Shown here piece by piece: positions 2,813 to 22,583 of a stretch of 22,583 nt of DNA. Positions within the stretch are counted from its first letter, which is position 1; the number at the start of each line of letters is the position of its first letter. The DNA is from a virus: the IMG/VR virus record IMGVR_UViG_3300028228_000032, positions 1-22,583 of that record. One strand, given 5' to 3'. Made by a program: the position numbers and the translations under genes. The notes under the pieces were generated by a model, which was given only the letters and a program-made list of their open reading frames with translations, did no database searches and had not been told where the DNA came from.

Positions 2813-5488
2813 TTATCCTTCCACAATCATGTCGTCGCTTGCTGCTATCGCCACCGCAACCGCTGTTGTTGTATTTGAAACTCGCTGCAAGCCTGAGAAT
2901 GTTGACCGCCCTGCTGATGTACCGACGTGCAGTAGGTCAGTTACATCGTCGTGTGCTAGGGCTGTCACTGCGTCTGACGTGCCATATAATGTGCAAGCTG
3001 CGTTCTCTTGGAACAGTGGTAGTTCATCACGGTAGGACTTAGCGATTTGCTCTGCGCTTGGTGCTGTTGCTGAAACGCGCCAGAGGGCTAGCGTGGCCCC
3101 CGTAGCTGGCGCGGTAAGGCCAAACGAATTACCAAAGAATACGGAGGCCGCTGTGTTACTGATGTTCTCTACATTTGCCACCGAGTACACCAAAACATCA
3201 TTTACGTATAAACACAGAACCCCAGAACGTCTGACGAGGTGTACGCGCTTTAGACCTGTGCTGAAAGGGACACCTGTACCGATAGCCGCTCCGCTAGCAC
3301 TACATGCGACATACCAATTTCCTGTTATGACGAACAAAGCCAATCTGCTGCTTGATACTGCGCCTCTGTCAAAAAAGACTTGAGTACGTACGTCAGACGA
3401 GACCCACCCACACACACTAAAGTCACCTGTACCAAAGTCCAGATCACTATTGTACGGCTGCTCAAGGTAGTTGCTTGAGGAGAACCCTGAGTACGCCATA
3501 AGTTCAGCGCCAGTCGCCACTGCTGTCTTTGTGACTGTGCCGAATGTAGCTAGGCCGTTGGCGTTGACTGATCTGTCTTCGTCGGCAAGGCGGTGGCGAA
3601 CACTGTCAATGATTATGACTTGTACCGCTAAAGATGAAGGACGAATATCAATTCTAGGTGATTGGTTTGTTGCGACATAGGTTATTGTCTGAACACCTGT
3701 TCCAGATGCGTTGTATGTAGTACCACCTGTAATAGCCACATACACATCTCCACCTCCATCGTTAACAACGTCAAAAGACAGCACATATGTTTTACCGACA
3801 ACGTTCGAGGAGCTAAGTGTCTGTACAGTATTACTACCATCTTGGCCATTACGGTCAATTTGTAGCGCACCTGATACGATGGTATACTGCGTAAGCGTTC
3901 CAGCTTTTGTCCAGCCAGTAGGTGGCGTATTACCCGTTGCGCCCGTCCAGTCTTCCCCATTAGTAACCAACTCACTACCAACCAAATCAGTATCATCAGT
4001 TGACGCAAGGAACGCACCTTGGATGTCACCGACCATGTAGCCAGTGGCGTAGTCTGACGCTGTGTAGGCGACCATGCCGTCGCTTGTCTCTCCCGAAAGA
4101 ATAGTTATTCCTTCCGTTGTGCCTACCACGTTGTTGTTTAAGCTAGTTTGGTCTGTCCCGTTAATCGCCATGCTAGACTGAGAAGCGTTGTAAGTGTTAC
4201 GGTTTTGGGCAGTAGAGTTAGTGACATCTGATGTGGGAATGTCAATCACGTCGAGCTGGTCTATTGCCCCTGTATAAAAGCTACCGTAAAGTCTGTTACC
4301 AATCAGGTCGACATAATTAAACGCATACGCTGCAACAGTATAGTCAAACACAGCGCCAGTATCCGTAATAACACTCACACCACCCGCAGTCGCTAGTGCA
4401 ATAGTTGGAACCTGCAAACCTGTAGCTGAATCAATAGGTGCATTGGGCAGCACGGTCATTGCTACGTCGTTGCATAAATTGCTAACTAACCTTGTCCCAC
4501 CAGATACCGCCGTGTTTGTGCCAACGTCATTACGTTGAGAAATATTAACAGGAACTATGAAATTAAAGTTAAACCCAGATCCCGTCAAAACTTCACCGTC
4601 GTCGCTGGTAAACCTAACTATGGTTAAACCTGATGCGGTGGTGCCATTACTTGACATAACTAAAGTGCCGTTAAGAATCTTAACAGAGGACACTGAGCCA
4701 GCGCCCAAACGACAAGGCAAACCTGACCCCCAGCCATTTTGACTGAAAACCATCCACATCGGCAACGTGGGATCATCGCCATCAAAGATCGTAACCTTGT
4801 CGCTTTCAGCAATAATAATAGCAACAGATGGGAACTTACGTGTAGCTCCTCGTGTAGCTGTGTTCAGCGTCTCTTTGTACCATGACGTGCCTTGTGTGCG
4901 ATTGCGCCATGCACCACCGTCCGAGTCTTCGGAAGTCCTGTAGACGAAACCATCAACCATTGTGATGGCCTTAGAGGCTGCGATAGCTGTTAGCTCAACA
5001 TCAGTGAACTTAGGGTCATCAGTTGTAGCCAAGCCTTGGTCTAACGCTTTAACTGAAGCGATATCTGTAAGCTCACTGTCCATTAAGGCACCAGCGGCAG
5101 CGACATTTGCGGCGTCCGTCACATCGGCACTCGCTTCGATCCCGTTCAACTTGGTCTTGTCGCCATTGGCAAAAGCGCCTTCAGATGGTGGCTGTTGTAT
5201 GTCCACGCCAGCGGCAGTGACATAAACCACAGCGTCGCCGGAAAGGCTTAACAGTGAACCTGTGGAGCTTTCATCAAGCGCTCGAGAAAGGGAGGTGCCT
5301 GTTGTCGTGTAGGTTCCTAAACCAATCTCCCAAGCGTCCCCATCCTCAATAATGTATCGGACCACATTGGCATTGGAGACGCCAGCATCAGCGAACGTCT
5401 GATAGCCACTCTCAGCAGCGCCAAGCGTGATTGTACCTGTGCCAGTTGTGGCGGTTGCTACCTTGGCTCTATTTACGAAAGTGACCAT
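2813..5488 (-). CDS. Large tail fibre / receptor-binding protein
   Basis: An 891-residue protein, the longest intact frame in the window. Residues 1-98 form the conserved head seen in many tail fibres (MVTFVNRAKVATATTGTGTI, then WEIGLGTYT and LSRALDESS). Residues 108-160 hold the stalk motif KTKLNGIEASADVTDAANV. Residues about 175-500 form a beta-rich region. Residues 506-635 are a carbohydrate-binding-like domain (ELVTNGEDW, GWTKAG, KTYVLSFDV). Residues 655-815 resemble a LamG/concanavalin fold (YLEQPYNSDLDFGTGDFSV, LYVNDVLVY, TLALWRVSATAPS). The C terminus (ctLYGTSDAVTALAHDD, LLHVGTSAGRSTFSGL) is a short repeat-like cap. These features indicate the main adhesin contacting cell-surface polysaccharide. 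The stop lies five bases before the next start, and the ribosome site of that gene is inside this one. Confidence 0.85.
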   Translation of the reverse strand: MVTFVNRAKVATATTGTGTITLGAAESGYQTFADAGVSNANVVRYIIEDGDAWEIGLGTYTTTGTSLSRALDESSTGSLLSLSGDAVVYVTAAGVDIQQPPSEGAFANGDKTKLNGIEASADVTDAANVAAAGALMDSELTDIASVKALDQGLATTDDPKFTDVELTAIAASKAITMVDGFVYRTSEDSDGGAWRNRTQGTSWYKETLNTATRGATRKFPSVAIIIAESDKVTIFDGDDPTLPMWMVFSQNGWGSGLPCRLGAGSVSSVKILNGTLVMSSNGTTASGLTIVRFTSDDGEVLTGSGFNFNFIVPVNISQRNDVGTNTAVSGGTRLVSNLCNDVAMTVLPNAPIDSATGLQVPTIALATAGGVSVITDTGAVFDYTVAAYAFNYVDLIGNRLYGSFYTGAIDQLDVIDIPTSDVTNSTAQNRNTYNASQSSMAINGTDQTSLNNNVVGTTEGITILSGETSDGMVAYTASDYATGYMVGDIQGAFLASTDDTDLVGSELVTNGEDWTGATGNTPPTGWTKAGTLTQYTIVSGALQIDRNGQDGSNTVQTLSSSNVVGKTYVLSFDVVNDGGGDVYVAITGGTTYNASGTGVQTITYVATNQSPRIDIRPSSLAVQVIIIDSVRHRLADEDRSVNANGLATFGTVTKTAVATGAELMAYSGFSSSNYLEQPYNSDLDFGTGDFSVCGWVSSDVRTQVFFDRGAVSSSRLALFVITGNWYVACSASGAAIGTGVPFSTGLKRVHLVRRSGVLCLYVNDVLVYSVANVENISNTAASVFFGNSFGLTAPATGATLALWRVSATAPSAEQIAKSYRDELPLFQENAACTLYGTSDAVTALAHDDVTDLLHVGTSAGRSTFSGLQRVSNTTTAVAVAIAASDDMIVEG

Positions 5489-17148: not shown

Positions 17149-17711
17149 TCACAGCCTGCCCTTCATACGAAGTCGGCGGGTTGATTGTGATTTCGTTTGC
17201 TCGGCGCGGTGCGCTTCAAGCGCGCGCAGGCCGATTTCGGTGCCTGCATATGCTGGCGTCGTGACAATCGAAACGTCATAAAGCTCGACGTCCTTGATCA
17301 TCCGCTTTGGAATGTCGCCGCTGTCGTCCCACTCTTGGCGGGTCGGCACAAAACGCAAAAAGACATTTGTCCAGATCGCCGCGCTTCATTTTAGGGACAA
17401 TGCTGCGCACGTCTGGGTCCATCGGGTCGAGATCTGTTTCAATAACAAGCCGCGCTCGTCCTCGGTCAGCTTCAGCGTTCCTGAACGCGTCCGTGCCAAT
17501 GGCAGCCCTTCATGGTTGATAACAAAACAACATCGTCGCCGCGCTCTATCGCACTTTTGAACGCGCCGCGCTCGATTACTTCGGTAAACATGCCCGCGAT
17601 GTTGGTTTCTTCGCCAAAGATTGCGGCATAACCCGACACGCGGACTGGCGCGTCGTCTTCTTCGCGGACTTCAAGCGCTTCGGATAACGCACGAATCTCT
17701 TTATCAGGCAT
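17149..17711 (-). CDS. HK97 prohead protease (S78), heavily frame-broken
   Basis: Reconstructed gene of about 187 codons that processes the capsid delta domain. ATG 17711 (MPDKEIRALSEALEVREEDD) overlaps the portal stop and has GGAGG upstream. The frame gives VSGYAAIFGEETNIAGMFTE and ERGAFKSAIERGDDVVLL. It then breaks near 17520, continues INHEGLPLARTRSGTLKLTE with the catalytic His in NHEG, and breaks near 17448. It continues VIETDLDPMDPDVRSIVPKM and KRGDLDK, then meets a cluster of three indels at 17353-17368. After repair that cluster reads DKMSFAFVPTRQEWDD with the catalytic Ser in MSFAF. The last part, DIPKRMIKDVELYDVSIVTT and PAYAGTEIGLRALEAHR, is the usual S78 core end. All key residues are present once indels are corrected, so the gene is probably functional in the real phage. 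Confidence 0.82.
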
Positions 17712-18375
17712 CGTCGCCTCCATTTTTTTGTGTACCCATCGGCACGGTTGCACCTTGAATCATCAGGTTTCCGCCTTCATCGCGCTCAGGCAGGTTTTCA
17801 ACTGTGCGAACTTCGTTTGGTGTGCGAATGCCATTTTGAATTGACGTTGCGTGTGCTTCCATGCGCGTCTTGAAGTCACCGCGCAGCAAGCCGTCAACAT
17901 TAAACTCGACATAAAACTCAGACCCACGCGGGAAGAACTTTAAGTTCATTTCTTGCTCGACTTGCTCGATCCACCGCTTCATCGTGTGTTTCACGAATTG
18001 CAAATCTTGCTGCTCTGTGTTGCTGAATGTGCCGTGCGTTAGGTCTTGCAAGAACACTGGCGGTAAGCTGTAAATTCGGGCAATCTGCTCAATGCTGAAA
18101 CGCTGCAACTCCAAAAGCTGCATTTGCTCTGGGTTGAAACCGATTGGCTTCATTTCGTGGCCCATAGGCAGCGCCATCACAGGCCGACCTTCGCGTGCTA
18201 GTCTTTCAGTAGTCTTAGCAACGTCATCAGAAGCACGCTGTGCAGCCGCGCCGCTTTGAAACGGACCTTGCAGCACAACAGGGGGGATGCCGCCCGCTTT
18301 GAAACGCCTTGGCCCCGTAGCGACTGGCTGCGATTGCCATGCCGATAGCGTCGCGGTTCGTGTGAATAGGGCCAC
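17704..18375 (-). CDS. Portal protein, C-terminal part
   Basis: Second half of the HK97-type portal. The productive reading begins at FKAGGIPPVVLQGPFQSGAA after the frame break near 18302. It includes the LPMGHEMKPIGFNPEQMQLL wing segment, the QIARIYSLPPVFLQDLTHGT core helix, SNTEQQDLQFVKHTMKRWIE (tunnel helix), QEMNLKFFPRGSEFYVEFNV and the crown helix with RMEAHATSIQNGIRTPNEVR. Those motifs (FNPEQ-x-Q-x-LE-x-x-x-F, I-AR-x-x-x-xPP-x-x-L, N-x-EQQ, G-x-x-T-xNEVR) are diagnostic of the Phage_portal family. Residues upstream of the break (MALFTRTATLSAWQSQPVAT) are out-of-frame sequence. The stop overlaps the protease start by eight bases. Confidence 0.9.
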   Translation of the reverse strand: MALFTRTATLSAWQSQPVATGPRRFKAGGIPPVVLQGPFQSGAAAQRASDDVAKTTERLAREGRPVMALPMGHEMKPIGFNPEQMQLLELQRFSIEQIARIYSLPPVFLQDLTHGTFSNTEQQDLQFVKHTMKRWIEQVEQEMNLKFFPRGSEFYVEFNVDGLLRGDFKTRMEAHATSIQNGIRTPNEVRTVENLPERDEGGNLMIQGATVPMGTQKNGGDDA

Positions 18376-18934
18376 GCACGTCGAGGTTGTTCGACTTCAC
18401 CATGAATGGGATGTCGATAACCTCGTTTGCCGAATAGGTTTGACCCTTGTGAATATAGACGCGGACCTGACGGCGGCCTTCTGTGCGATGTTCCACCCGC
18501 GTGTATTGTGGATCAAGCGGGTAAAGGTTCGCAATCGCTCCGTTTTCGGTGCGTTCAATATATGTAACGCTGCGCCCGCCAGTGAAGACCTGATCAAATG
18601 AATATTTGCGCCACTCGAATGATGACATGCTTTCGTTCGCAACGTCATGCAGGATGGACTGCAACGGGCCTTTGACGCGTTCTCGGCTGCCGTCCTCATT
18701 CTTGCGGTAAACATGCAACGGCAAGCCCGCAAGCGTTCCGCTCAAAAAGTTGACCGCAGCCCATACAGCGGGAACGCCAAGCGCGGTGTCAGTGTTGACT
18801 GTGATGCCTGCCGAAGACGACATATCGCCCCAGCCCATAACCTGAAGGAAATCAGACGCCGAGACAGGCGCTGACGGATCTTCAAGGTTTCGCGCTTCTG
18901 GTTTTCTTAGCCGATCAAAAAGGCCCATCAACAT
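18227..18934 (-). CDS. Portal protein, N-terminal part
   Basis: First half of the HK97-type portal, the dodecamer through which DNA enters. It starts MLMGLFDRLRKPEARNLEDP; ATG 18934 and ATG 18928 are both possible, with only a weak AGAGCGG upstream. The clear portal segments are ITVNTDTALGVPAVWAAVNF, LSGTLAGLPLHVYRKNEDGS, ESMSSFEWRKYSFDQVFTGG, AIANLYPLDPQYTRVEHRTE and VIDIPFMVKSNNLDVRGPIH. The frame is valid to AIGMAIAASRYGAKAF and then runs into out-of-frame residues (QSGRHPPCCAAR). Loss of one T from TTT at 18302-18304 joins it to the second half as AKAFKAGGIPPVV. A 53-base gap after the large terminase holds nothing else that I can identify. Confidence 0.9.
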   Translation of the reverse strand: MLMGLFDRLRKPEARNLEDPSAPVSASDFLQVMGWGDMSSSAGITVNTDTALGVPAVWAAVNFLSGTLAGLPLHVYRKNEDGSRERVKGPLQSILHDVANESMSSFEWRKYSFDQVFTGGRSVTYIERTENGAIANLYPLDPQYTRVEHRTEGRRQVRVYIHKGQTYSANEVIDIPFMVKSNNLDVRGPIHTNRDAIGMAIAASRYGAKAFQSGRHPPCCAARSVSKRRGCTACF

Positions 18935-18987: not shown

Positions 18988-20289
18988 TCAGGAAACCATG
19001 CTAAAATTAGGATCGTCCCAAGGTGATGCAGCTACGAGGCCAGCGTCTCCGTTTATCGCAGCGCCGATTGCCATCGTGGCGGCGAGTGCAATGTCGATCC
19101 GCCCAGTGGCGCGCTGTTTTTCAAACCTGCGAAGGCCAGCAGGTGACGTCCAGAAGCACGCGGATGCCACCGCAGAGCGCAGAGCGGGATTGACCTCGAT
19201 GCGCAGCCGACCTTCTAAAATCAGATCCTCAAACTGGTTTACAGACTGCGGCATCCAAAGCGGGCTGTCTTTGCGTTGATTCGTCCCTTGCGGATGCTCA
19301 ATCAACGGTAGGGTTGCGCCCGTTTCATCCAGCGCGTTTTCAAATGTCTTGATCAGCCACTTGTCATAGGAAACTGCCTGCACGTCAAAACGCTGCGCGG
19401 CGTTCACCAGATCGTGCGCAAGGTGGTCATATCGGATCACTTTGCCAGCGGGGGCAATCAGCCAGCCGTCGCGTTCCCACACAGTGTAGGGCGCTTTGTC
19501 CGTCAGTTCTCGTTGCGACAAAGTGTCCTTTGGGGTATACCCACGCGCGCAAAGCGCAAACTTGGGCCTGCCGTCCTCGTCCTTCCCGTCTGGAAAGACA
19601 TAAGCAACGCCAGTCATGTCCTTAGTCGCTGACAAATCAAGCCCAATAAAACATGGTTGGCCCTCAAAGTCCTCCAACGTCATGTTAGGGTCTTCGCAGG
19701 CTTCCCACGCGCTGCGGCTAATCCATGCCGCTTCCGAGTCTGTCCAAACGCAGAAGTGCAAACGCAAAATGCTATTCAATTTTCCTGGAATTGCCTTGGC
19801 CTGATCAACAACGCCTTGCAAATAACTTTCTTTTAGGATGACGCCCAGCATCGGGTTCACTTTGACCCAGCACGTTGGGTCATTGAGCGGGTCGTCGCCT
19901 TCATCCAAGGCGCAAACATATGGAAAAGTCGTGTCGTCCGTCGCATCACCAGCGGCCACTGCGCAGGCGTGTTCGTGTTCTTCCCAGCAAACGCTGTTGC
20001 GGTCAGACCCGCTGTTTGTGATCATCAACATCAACGGCTGGCGGCGGAATTTAAAGCCACGTTCAAGCATTTCCATGATGTTTCTGTCTGGGTGTTCGTG
20101 GACCTCATCACAAAGCGCAAAGTGCGGACGCGGGCCAGATCCCGACTTGCCACTGTCACGGCTGATGGGGCGAAAGAAAGATCCTGAACGCAAGTCGGCA
20201 AGGTTCCAAACTGGGTTGACGCCCGACGGCGTGACGCGCGGCTCAAGCACTGGCGACTGGCGGACCATTTTCACAGCGTCTTGGAACAA
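18988..20289 (-). CDS. Terminase large subunit, main part
   Basis: A 433-codon frame holding most of the DNA-packaging motor. It contains the Walker B region HFALCDEVHEHPDRN with the DE pair, the coupling segment PLMLMITNSGSDRNSVCWEE, and WVKVNPMLGVILKESYLQGV. The RNase-H-like nuclease follows, with metal-binding candidates in FIGLDLSATKDMTGVAYVFP, VQAVSYDKWLIKTFENALDE and a final RIDIALAATMAIGAAING. Composition and order are those of HK97-type large terminases. The displayed start (TTG 20289) is artificial: the protein continues from the frame at 20271-20453 through a missing T in the run at 20288-20290 (AMILFQDAVKMV after repair). The stop at 18988 leaves a 53-base gap before the portal gene. 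Confidence 0.93.
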   Translation of the reverse strand: MFQDAVKMVRQSPVLEPRVTPSGVNPVWNLADLRSGSFFRPISRDSGKSGSGPRPHFALCDEVHEHPDRNIMEMLERGFKFRRQPLMLMITNSGSDRNSVCWEEHEHACAVAAGDATDDTTFPYVCALDEGDDPLNDPTCWVKVNPMLGVILKESYLQGVVDQAKAIPGKLNSILRLHFCVWTDSEAAWISRSAWEACEDPNMTLEDFEGQPCFIGLDLSATKDMTGVAYVFPDGKDEDGRPKFALCARGYTPKDTLSQRELTDKAPYTVWERDGWLIAPAGKVIRYDHLAHDLVNAAQRFDVQAVSYDKWLIKTFENALDETGATLPLIEHPQGTNQRKDSPLWMPQSVNQFEDLILEGRLRIEVNPALRSAVASACFWTSPAGLRRFEKQRATGRIDIALAATMAIGAAINGDAGLVAASPWDDPNFSMVS

Positions 20290-20711
20290 ATCATTGCTTG
20301 CTCTTTTTTAGCCGCCGCCGCGTATATCTGCGCGCCAGCCTCCCCGTCAGCCATCATGCCATAAAGGCCAATACCGCCAGCAAGCGGAGACTTCCCGTTG
20401 CCCTTTCCCATTTCAATGTAGGCGCGGCGATAGCGGCGTGTCCCATCGGGCAACTTCCAGCCGAACAGTGAGCCAACAATAAACGCCTGACTGATATGAA
20501 GGTCAAATGGGATGCCTTCAAACTGGCCTTCACTCAGCCGCAGGACTTCGGCAAAAAATCAATCACGCGGTCAGCTGCGCCTTCATCGAAATAAATGCCG
20601 TCGCGCGTTAAGTCAGCCAAGTGCCGCTTGCACTGGTTGCGGACGTGCGGGCCAGCAACAATTTTGCCAGACCATTACCTGCTCGGCGTATTGGTGTACG
20701 ATGTGAGTCAC
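20271..20711 (-). CDS. Terminase large subunit, N-terminal part (broken frames)
   Basis: The N-terminal ATPase half, spread over three frames. GTG 20711 is the likely start, inside a GTGA overlap with the corrected small-subunit stop; it reads THIVHQYAEQV. One extra G at 20672-20673 moves the frame to SGKIVAGPHVRNQCKRHLAD and LTRDGIYFDEGAADRVIDF. Six A at 20553-20558 (plus strand) should be seven, after which it reads FFAEVLRLSEGQFEGIPFDL, HISQAFIVGSLFGWKLPDGT and RRYRRAYIEMGKGNGKSP with the Walker A motif. The frame is then open (GIGLYGMMADGEAGAQIYAA) to the third break at 20288-20290. Total length after repair is about 575 residues, normal for the family. Confidence 0.82.
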
Positions 20712-21201
20712 TGAAAGAACCTCGCTGATGGGTCTTTTCGTTCGCCTTGTCAGCATCCACACCAAGGCGAACGCGGCTGGATGGCGTCAAACCATATTCA
20801 GCGGCGTATTTCATCGCATCCCGCATTGCCGTGTTAGCAGTCCCTACCATTGGGTTTTGAACGATATTCCCGTTGCTGGTTTTGATAATTAGACCGCCGC
20901 TTGCTGGACTTTTTTCTGCCATCGCTTGAATCGCTTCTTCGGCTTTTTGCCACCGCCCATAGGCTTGGCAATACATCGCAAGCCCGCGACCATCTATTTC
21001 GGTCAGAATACCGCATCGAAACAATGCTCCGCATATGTGGTGCCACTCGGCCATAGCGTAGGGGTCAAGGTGGTCTGGCGGTTCTGGCAAGTGGCCCATA
21101 ATTGTGACGGGCGCAGGCTCGTTTTTCGGCAGTGGCCTGCGGCCTGCGTTGCCTGTCACGACCTTCATGGCAGTCGGCTTCGGCTTACGTCCCCGCGTCA
21201 A
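20608..21201 (-). CDS. Terminase small subunit, P27 family
   Basis: DNA-recognition subunit that starts packaging. The protein begins MTRGRKPKPTAMKVVTGNAG from a TTG codon at 21201 that overlaps the methylase stop. It continues RRPLPKNEPAPV, PPDHLDPYAMAEWHHICGAL, GILTEIDGRGLAMYCQAYGR, LIIKTSNGNIVQNPMVGTAN and YAAEYGLTPSSRVRLGVDAD, all standard P27 blocks. The open frame reaches 20608, but the real end is probably the TGA at 20708-20710. The A run at 20735-20738 seems to lack one A; with five A the C terminus reads DKANEKDPSARFFQ, the typical P27 ending, and the stop overlaps the GTG of the large subunit as GTGA. The last 45 or so displayed residues would then be out of frame. Confidence 0.9.
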   Translation of the reverse strand: MTRGRKPKPTAMKVVTGNAGRRPLPKNEPAPVTIMGHLPEPPDHLDPYAMAEWHHICGALFRCGILTEIDGRGLAMYCQAYGRWQKAEEAIQAMAEKSPASGGLIIKTSNGNIVQNPMVGTANTAMRDAMKYAAEYGLTPSSRVRLGVDADKANEKTHQRGSFSDSHRTPIRRAGNGLAKLLLARTSATSASGTWLT

Positions 21202-22432
21202 TGGCTAACTCCGCATATGTTTTCCCTGTAGCCTCTAGGGTTGCTGTCTGGCCTGTAAATTCCTGCCACCGATTAACAATCACATCGCAATATTTTGGGT
21301 CAAGTTCCATCAATCGTGCAAATCGCCCGTGTTTTTCGCAGGCGATTGCCGTTGTTCCTGAGCCAGCAAAACTGTCCAAGACCTGATCACCACCCTTTGT
21401 GTTGTTAAGCATCTGATATTCGAACAACTCGACAGGCTTCATGGTTGGGTGTTCTGTGTTTCGGCTAGGGCGATCAAACTCAAGAATTGTCGTTTGCTTT
21501 CGATCTGTAGCCCATAGGTGTCCAGCACCGCCCTTCCACCCGTAGAGGCACGTCTCGTGCTTCCAGTGATAATCTTGACGACCCATCACAAGCGTTTGTT
21601 TTTTCCAGATCAAACATTGACGAACCTGCCATCCCACATCGTGGCAGGCACCTCTGAAATTGTAGCCCTCTGAATCTGCGTGCCATATATAAAAAACCGC
21701 ACCGGGCTTCATGACTGCGTCTGCAGCAGTGTTTGCATCTGACAAAAACTGTCGAAACCCCTCATCGCTCATCGAATCATTTTGTATGGTAAGCGCGTCT
21801 TTAGTCTTGCCTTCATAAGCCACGTTATATGGGGGGTCAGTTAACCACATATCTACCAGCTGTCCCTGAGTAAGACTTTCCATAGCGTCTATGCTTAAGC
21901 TGTCACCGCACATCAATCGGTGCTTTCCCATGACCCAAACATCGCCCTCGACAGTGACGGGAACCTCTGGGGCATCTGGCACTGCGTCCTCATCGGTCAA
22001 CCCTTCGGTTTCCTCAACAAAAAACGCCGCCAGTTCGTCAGGGCCAAAACCAGTCAATGACAGGTCGAAATCAAGCTCTCCCAGTTCGCCAAGCTCAACT
22101 TTGAGCATTTCGTCATCCCAGCCAGAATTGAGCGCCAGCTTATTGTCTGCAATCACATATGCTTTTCTCTGTGCGTCGGTCCATCCCTCTGCAACCATGC
22201 AGGGGACATCTTCAATGCCCAGCTTTTGAGCTGCAAGAATACGCCCGTGACCTGCAATCAAACCGCCGTTTGATTCAATCAAAACAGGGACCGTCCAGCC
22301 CCACTCTTTGATAGAGGCAGCTATTTGTCCAACCTGCTCGTCGCTGTGCGTGCGGCTGTTTCGTGCGTACGGAATAAGCTCTGCGACCTTGCGGCGCTCG
22401 ACTTTATCGGCGGGCCATTGTTGTTCTGACAT
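21185..22432 (-). CDS. ParB-like nuclease / DNA methyltransferase fusion
   Basis: A 415-residue two-domain protein. Residues 10-105 form a ParB/Srx-like domain (ELIPYARNSRTHSDEQVGQI, GGLIAGHGRILAAQKLGIED, with the GHGR motif at 61-64). Residues 163-400 form an N6/N4 amino methylase with the catalytic TDPPYNV (DPPY at 199-202) before the SAM-binding DSFAGSGT (353-360), so it is a beta-class, permuted enzyme. DPPY usually means N6-adenine or N4-cytosine; CcrM-like adenine targets are likely but unproven. No restriction gene is nearby, so it is an orphan methylase that may protect phage DNA or mark packaging sites. ATG 22432 has AAGGAG seven bases upstream. Such fusions often precede the terminase genes in phages of Alphaproteobacteria. 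The stop overlaps the small terminase start. Confidence 0.93.
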   Translation of the reverse strand: MSEQQWPADKVERRKVAELIPYARNSRTHSDEQVGQIAASIKEWGWTVPVLIESNGGLIAGHGRILAAQKLGIEDVPCMVAEGWTDAQRKAYVIADNKLALNSGWDDEMLKVELGELGELDFDLSLTGFGPDELAAFFVEETEGLTDEDAVPDAPEVPVTVEGDVWVMGKHRLMCGDSLSIDAMESLTQGQLVDMWLTDPPYNVAYEGKTKDALTIQNDSMSDEGFRQFLSDANTAADAVMKPGAVFYIWHADSEGYNFRGACHDVGWQVRQCLIWKKQTLVMGRQDYHWKHETCLYGWKGGAGHLWATDRKQTTILEFDRPSRNTEHPTMKPVELFEYQMLNNTKGGDQVLDSFAGSGTTAIACEKHGRFARLMELDPKYCDVIVNRWQEFTGQTATLEATGKTYAELAIDAGT

Positions 22433-22460
22433 ATCTTCTCCTTTGGAAGTTTAAAAGGGG

Positions 22461-22526
22461 GTGCAACGTGATGGCTTCCATCCCGCAGCTCACATGATTG
22501 CAAGTTGCGGAAACATCACGCTGCAC
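22461..22526 (-). promoter_or_regulatory. Long RNA hairpin in the leader before the methylase gene
   Basis: On the transcribed strand GTGCAGCGTGATG pairs with CATCACGTTGCAC over 13 pairs, one of them G-U. After an internal loop (TTT against nine bases) a 5-bp stem CCGCA/TGCGG follows, then after a 1x1 mismatch a 6-bp helix CTTGCA/TGTGAG with a 4-base loop. The G-U pair is an A-C mismatch on the plus strand, so the fold favours minus-strand RNA. The hairpin begins five bases after the predicted -10 box. CCCCCTTTT follows it, so a terminator for upstream transcription is an alternative. No known RNA family is recognised. Confidence 0.6.
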
Positions 22527-22530
22527 GGCT

Positions 22531-22560
22531 ATTAAGATCAGCTTTGACCCTCGGTGTCAA
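22531..22560 (-). promoter_or_regulatory. Candidate promoter of the morphogenesis operon
   Basis: Minus strand TTGACA (22555-22560), 18-base spacer, CTTAAT (22531-22536). The -35 is a perfect match and the -10 matches four of six positions (TAAT end). The predicted start falls at about 22524-22526, at the foot of the long hairpin. It is the only convincing promoter I see ahead of the tightly overlapping gene series. Confidence 0.5.
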
Positions 22561-22561
22561 A
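22543..22561. promoter_or_regulatory. Operator-like inverted repeat over the -35 box
   Basis: Perfect 6-bp inverted repeat TTTGAC/GTCAAA with a 7-base spacer, centred close to the -35 box. The size suits a dimeric repressor or activator. Because TTGACA itself is one arm, part of the match could be a by-product of the promoter. Confidence 0.4.
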
Positions 22562-22583
22562 TTCGCGACTGAAAAAAGTAGGG

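Follow-up and report, generated by a model that had tools for sequence, protein, structure and literature searches.

The stretch at positions 22461-22561 of the window (the whole virus record of 22,583 nt, at whose contig edge the stretch lies) is best explained, with a probability of about 0.82, as part of the cos end of an HK97-type phage together with a separate functional RNA hairpin. The cos assignment is the best reading of the chromosome ends shared among contigs, the 11-nt gap between left and right stops, the HK97 control, and the setting among HNH nuclease, TerS and TerL genes. A packaging role had been only a side remark of an earlier sequence-only reading, and the shared ends, the gap and the gene order make it the main answer.

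In the mechanism that we propose, the stretch would represent the left chromosome end plus the leader of the first gene. The terminase subunits TerS and TerL, with the aid of the HNH nuclease, would cut the concatemer and leave 3' overhangs of ~11 nt. The first ~45 bp, including TTGACA and an inverted repeat, would serve mainly as a cosB-like element through which TerS recognises the site and sets the position of the cut. The hairpin at bp 58-123 would be distinct from this element and would function as RNA, in the orientation of the genes. Late transcription would pass from the HNH gene over the joined ends into the methylase-terminase operon with the hairpin inside the transcript, where it may process or stabilise the mRNA, for example as an RNase III site.

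The features are listed below, with p = 22584 - coordinate on the minus strand (p1 = base 22583).

22583, minus: left chromosome end (+1) and inferred cos cut; genes run inward and contig starts are shared
22541-22577, minus: conserved cos-proximal block CTTTTnnCAnnnnCAAAATTGACAnnGGGGGTCAAA, proposed TerS-binding element (cosB-like); block from alignment, binding inferred
22543-22561, no strand assigned: inverted repeat TTTGAC-7-GTCAAA, exact in the window (p23-41)
22555-22560, minus: TTGACA, exact (p24-29), the -35 box of the sequence-only reading
22531-22536, minus: CTTAAT, best -10 candidate, weak (4/6, spacer 18), absent from the promoter-scan output
22461-22526, minus: 66-nt RNA hairpin (p58-123), from folding, relatives and a covariance model
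22514-22526 with 22461-22473, minus: lower stem of the hairpin, 13 bp
22506-22512 with 22481-22487, minus: upper stem of the hairpin
22474-22480, minus: 7-nt 3' bulge UGGAAGC of the hairpin
22438-22441, minus: ribosome-binding site GGAG, outside the hairpin, read from the sequence
21185-22432, minus: ParB-like plus N6/N4 DNA methylase gene (phrog_498, PF01555), ATG at p152
20608-21201, minus: terminase small subunit, TerS (PF05119, phrog_83)
18988-20711, minus: terminase large subunit, TerL (PF03354/PF20441), frame broken near 20289

All recognised phage genes of the window lie on the minus strand. The stretch itself looks non-coding: no plausible gene fits it and the indels among relatives are not multiples of three. 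A coding role was rejected, and so was a dispersed repeat. TerL occupies two frames in the window contig versus a single open frame in L163, L165, L166 and L167, and the portal gene (17704-18934) is likewise split by a frameshift in the window and intact in L163 and L084; sequencing or assembly errors are most likely responsible for both. The tail region encodes an 891-aa protein (2813-5488) that has no PHROG or Pfam match. The first gene after the cos site keeps its ParB-like N-terminal domain, and the remainder is swapped between contigs: the window and L163 carry the methylase, and L179 (2503-3297) carries another C-terminal part.

The relatives that share the stretch are those found through TerL, with a left-flanking block that follows the pattern CTTTTnnCAAnGnCAAAATTGACAnnGGGGGTCAAAnCTG. 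The regions upstream of the methylase relatives are unrelated to that of the window, so that these relatives are misleading when used alone. Capsid relatives have a different terminase (~30% identity) except for L084, which ends before the methylase gene. The genome is mosaic: most contigs with a 77-88% identical capsid protein have a TerL only ~30% identical, and the close TerL relatives carry other capsid versions. L175 and L188 are the same 38-kb contig (IMGVR_UViG_3300046028_000962), which carries a terminase-capsid module close to either end, the two being different; it is either an assembly chimera or a fusion of two related phages. Prophages in sequenced genomes are distant (69% TerL identity at best), and a cos-like motif search of them by regular expression returned nothing beyond loosely similar G-runs. 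The nearest named relative found was Paracoccus phage Shpa (TerL 58% identical).

Contig ends and gene order at the proposed cos site

Fixed ends, as expected of an HK97-type cos site, were found on both sides, with nine left and three right ends each falling on a single homologous base. The nine left ends are those of the window and eight other IMG/VR contigs from different metagenomes (L166, L167, L168, L174, L177, L182, L183 and L184), which all begin at the base corresponding to 22583. The three right ends (L270, L272 and L282) stop exactly 13 nt past G-run..ATCCCTAnnGGC. All three belong to sister lineages, and no right end was retrieved when the window's own lineage was searched for one. 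Other relatives start elsewhere, either inside the end (L165, L169 and L170) or outside it (L163, L185, L186 and L204), as expected from a mixture of virion and intracellular DNA. One contig of 35,629 nt (G003, L169) extends from a point 35 nt inside the left end to the G-run of the right end, and therefore indicates a genome of ~35.7 kb for that phage.

The two kinds of stop can be related to each other in contigs that read through the site (L163, L175, L176, L179 and L204), all of which have the G-run and an ATCCCTA..GGC motif upstream of the left end. Right-end stop and left-end start are separated by 11 nt in L176, L179 and L204. The separation is also 11 nt in L163 when ATCCCTACGGCC is aligned base for base with ATCCCTATAGGC; the motif is one base shorter before GGC in this contig, and a motif-based count gives 12. 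The L175 junction has one base fewer. A loss of about 10 nt is the mark of a 3'-overhang cos site, and library end repair trims 3' overhangs, after which assemblers place the ends at contig limits (PMC5557969). The 11-nt gap would thus correspond to a 3' overhang, whose polarity and length are both deduced from contig ends.

It is very improbable that the shared ends are an assembly artefact, such as a population breakpoint or a homopolymer stop. The window contig does have broken TerL and portal frames, and a G-run is nearby, but the right-end stop lies 33 nt away from that G-run and the same base was reached in diverged lineages from different samples. The left-end blocks of the same-start contigs show as many as 18 differences over 43 positions, which makes a sequence-specific assembly stop unlikely. 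Moreover, stops occur on both sides with a constant 11-nt gap, in a geometry that matches HK97.

The gene neighbourhood is also that of an HK97-type cos site. The window itself ends at the cut, and in L163 and L179 an HNH gene adjoins the site, with TerS and TerL downstream. The surroundings run in the order HNH nuclease gene, G-run, joined ends, methylase, TerS and TerL. L260, a prophage contig that shares the motif, has by eye an HNH-like frame before the motif and a TerS-like start after it. The G-run plus ATCCCTAnnGGC recurs in other phages and prophages (L258, L259, L260, L262, L263, L266, L268, L269, L271 and L286), and the region of L258 has matches at the terminase small subunit genes of Klebsiella and Escherichia phage records, which suggests that the motif is a widespread cos signature. 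The stops of independent metagenome contigs can reveal where a chromosome ends and even how long its overhang is; no account of metagenome contigs that end at cos came up in a literature search.

The conserved block and the promoter question

TTGACA and the inverted repeat sit 23-41 bp inside the end, within the conserved block, and the block overlaps the interval equivalent to the TerS site of HK97. TerS probably binds this block as a cosB-like element, as judged from its position and conservation. The repeat is the only perfect match to TTTGAC-7-GTCAAA in the window (chance alone predicts 1.28 matches if up to two mismatches are allowed). TTGACA was retained in 12 of the 14 aligned left ends, and the two contigs that have lost it (L182 and L184) keep the rest of the block. 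One half of the inverted repeat is broken in L167, L168, L182 and L184.

TTGACA, the inverted repeat and the hairpin are all present where the sequence-only reading had placed them. Its main interpretation was that they form a sigma-70 promoter with an operator over the -35 box, the hairpin being the 5' end of the transcript. The exact TTGACA, the perfect repeat and a geometry that sets +1 at about the beginning of the hairpin agree with this, as does the 4/6 -10 candidate at spacer 18 in the window, L163 and L166. A sigma-70 promoter, however, requires conserved -35 and -10 boxes spaced by 16-18 nt, and here the -35 box is exact and the -10 box is not conserved: another window candidate, TCTTAA at spacer 17, matches at 3/6, and the best -10 of any relative does not exceed 4/6 and is 3/6 in most. 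In addition, the position of TTGACA is set by the chromosome end, the box and the repeat are lost or broken in the contigs named above, and a promoter scan reported nothing at this stretch. The promoter/operator interpretation is weakly supported because no -10 box is conserved, and we consider it unlikely, although a weak promoter in the hairpin-bearing lineages is conceivable. The supposed promoter/operator is better read as part of a DNA-packaging signal, which corrects a tempting call: a conserved TTGACA beside terminase genes can be a packaging signal.

A combination of both functions can also be imagined, in which TerS bound to the cos block would cover the -35 box of a promoter, packaging would silence the packaging operon, and the NGRAAGC hairpin would be a new protein-bound phage RNA. 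We regard this as distinctly improbable; if it were true, the binding partner of the hairpin would be a phage or host protein.

The hairpin and its possible roles

The hairpin described from the sequence has its 13-bp outer stem where proposed, with further pairing inside. The 66-nt element folds at -34.7 kcal/mol (z = -5.3; none of 200 shuffles was as good), and its stability ranks with the highest in a sample of 15,012 stretches of 66 nt from the window. A bare stem of 13 or more pairs, 6 or more of them G-C, turns up 0.85 times per shuffled window and is not rare, and the significance of the hairpin therefore lies in its conservation in relatives rather than in length alone. It was found in five contigs (the window, L163, L165, L166 and L170, the last cut by the contig start), three of which are close relatives; L170, left out of model building, scores E = 6e-6. 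A search of the other relatives with the covariance model revealed no further hairpin, a both-arm pattern search of IMG/VR found no other contig, and a 3'-arm pattern returned known relatives plus chance matches only.

Several features indicate an RNA element read in the direction of the genes. The covariance model scores 99 on the sense strand versus 18 on the antisense strand. Departures from Watson-Crick pairing on the gene strand comprise 12 G-U pairs versus one A-C and one other mismatch, in line with the proposal that the G-U pairs fit the minus strand only. In L166, the lower stem has double changes from UA to CG and from AU to GC, and several one-sided G-U changes occur in lower-stem pairs. 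The upper stems of L166 and L170 are different in sequence yet paired, and a comparison of these two contigs shows another two pairs with compensatory changes. The structural alignment from which the upper stem and the deviations were read was drawn up manually, a procedure biased towards pairing. The bulge on the 3' side has a constant length of 7 nt (NGRAAGC). The compensatory changes that keep the stem were as anticipated for a structured RNA, but the covariation score was reached by 48 of 500 shuffles, so that with five sequences the statistics are modest. The claim that no named RNA element has this structure was borne out in Rfam, where a covariance search gave no match at the gathering score and relaxed limits gave only a chance-level E of 3.3.

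It is quite unlikely that the hairpin is a DNA packaging element, i.e. a part of cos rather than an RNA. It lies <125 bp from the chromosome end, and phage lambda has cosB sites at such a distance. However, sister phages with the same cos block and an 84-89% identical TerL are without the hairpin, which argues that packaging does not need it, and the excess of G-U over A-C deviations on the gene strand also stands against a DNA element.

The hairpin is less likely again to act between the HNH and methylase genes as an intrinsic terminator or attenuator, even though some methylase relatives (L002, L005 and L022) have upstream, by eye, terminator-like hairpins with a T-run. The stem is followed by no conserved T-run (CCCCCTTTTAAAC, CCCCTTAACTT, CCCTCAGC and CCTTTGC) and the scan reported no terminator here. 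An intrinsic terminator was rejected because the U-tract required directly after the GC stem is missing.

Most likely, the hairpin is an RNA processing or regulatory element. A processing or stabilising hairpin fits best because of the 13-bp lower stem, the constant 7-nt one-sided bulge and the upper stem of 6-7 bp, and because there is no U-tract and the ribosome site is left free. The shape would suit an RNase III site (an irregular hairpin of ~20 bp), and an RNase III-type processing site is a tentative assignment, with a protein-bound or other regulatory leader ranking slightly behind it. In L163, the closest read-through relative, the HNH gene runs in the same direction and its end is ~80 nt from the cut, so that a late transcript crossing the joined ends may equally well contain the hairpin in its interior. 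The cos end belongs to a known kind, and this small hairpin with a constant bulge, which has no named Rfam family, is a candidate new RNA element that is open to test.

Comparison with HK97, other cos phages and T7

The ends of HK97 are known, whereas those of the window group are deduced from contigs, not from virion DNA. The HK97 cos site resembles that of the window group in its order of HNH gene, G-run, cut, TerS and TerL. As a control, the HK97 record ends 42 nt past its G-run, compared with 44 nt from the G-run to the left end in the window group, and 10 of the 42 nt are the overhang (PMC9410871; the discussion of the same paper gives 12), compared with the 11-nt gap here. The binding site of HK97 TerS lies at bp 15-29 from the cut, and binding requires a C:G pair beside an A/T tract (PMC11331095). 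An A/T tract next to a G/C pair is present in the TerS interval of both; the sequences of this interval differ, and the resemblance is architectural. Unlike HK97, the window group has a methylase gene between cos and TerS. For the 3' cos phages phiCD481-1 and phiCD506, the positions in the PhageTerm table imply an 11-nt gap (PMC5557969), as found here.

The closest likeness in shape to the hairpin is provided by the R sites of phage T7, which are RNase III hairpins of ~60 nt, located between genes of a polycistronic transcript, in which a one-sided bulge or an internal loop separates the two stems. We know of no sequence relation between them and the window hairpin; what they share is the form of two stems, a one-sided bulge and a length of ~60 nt.
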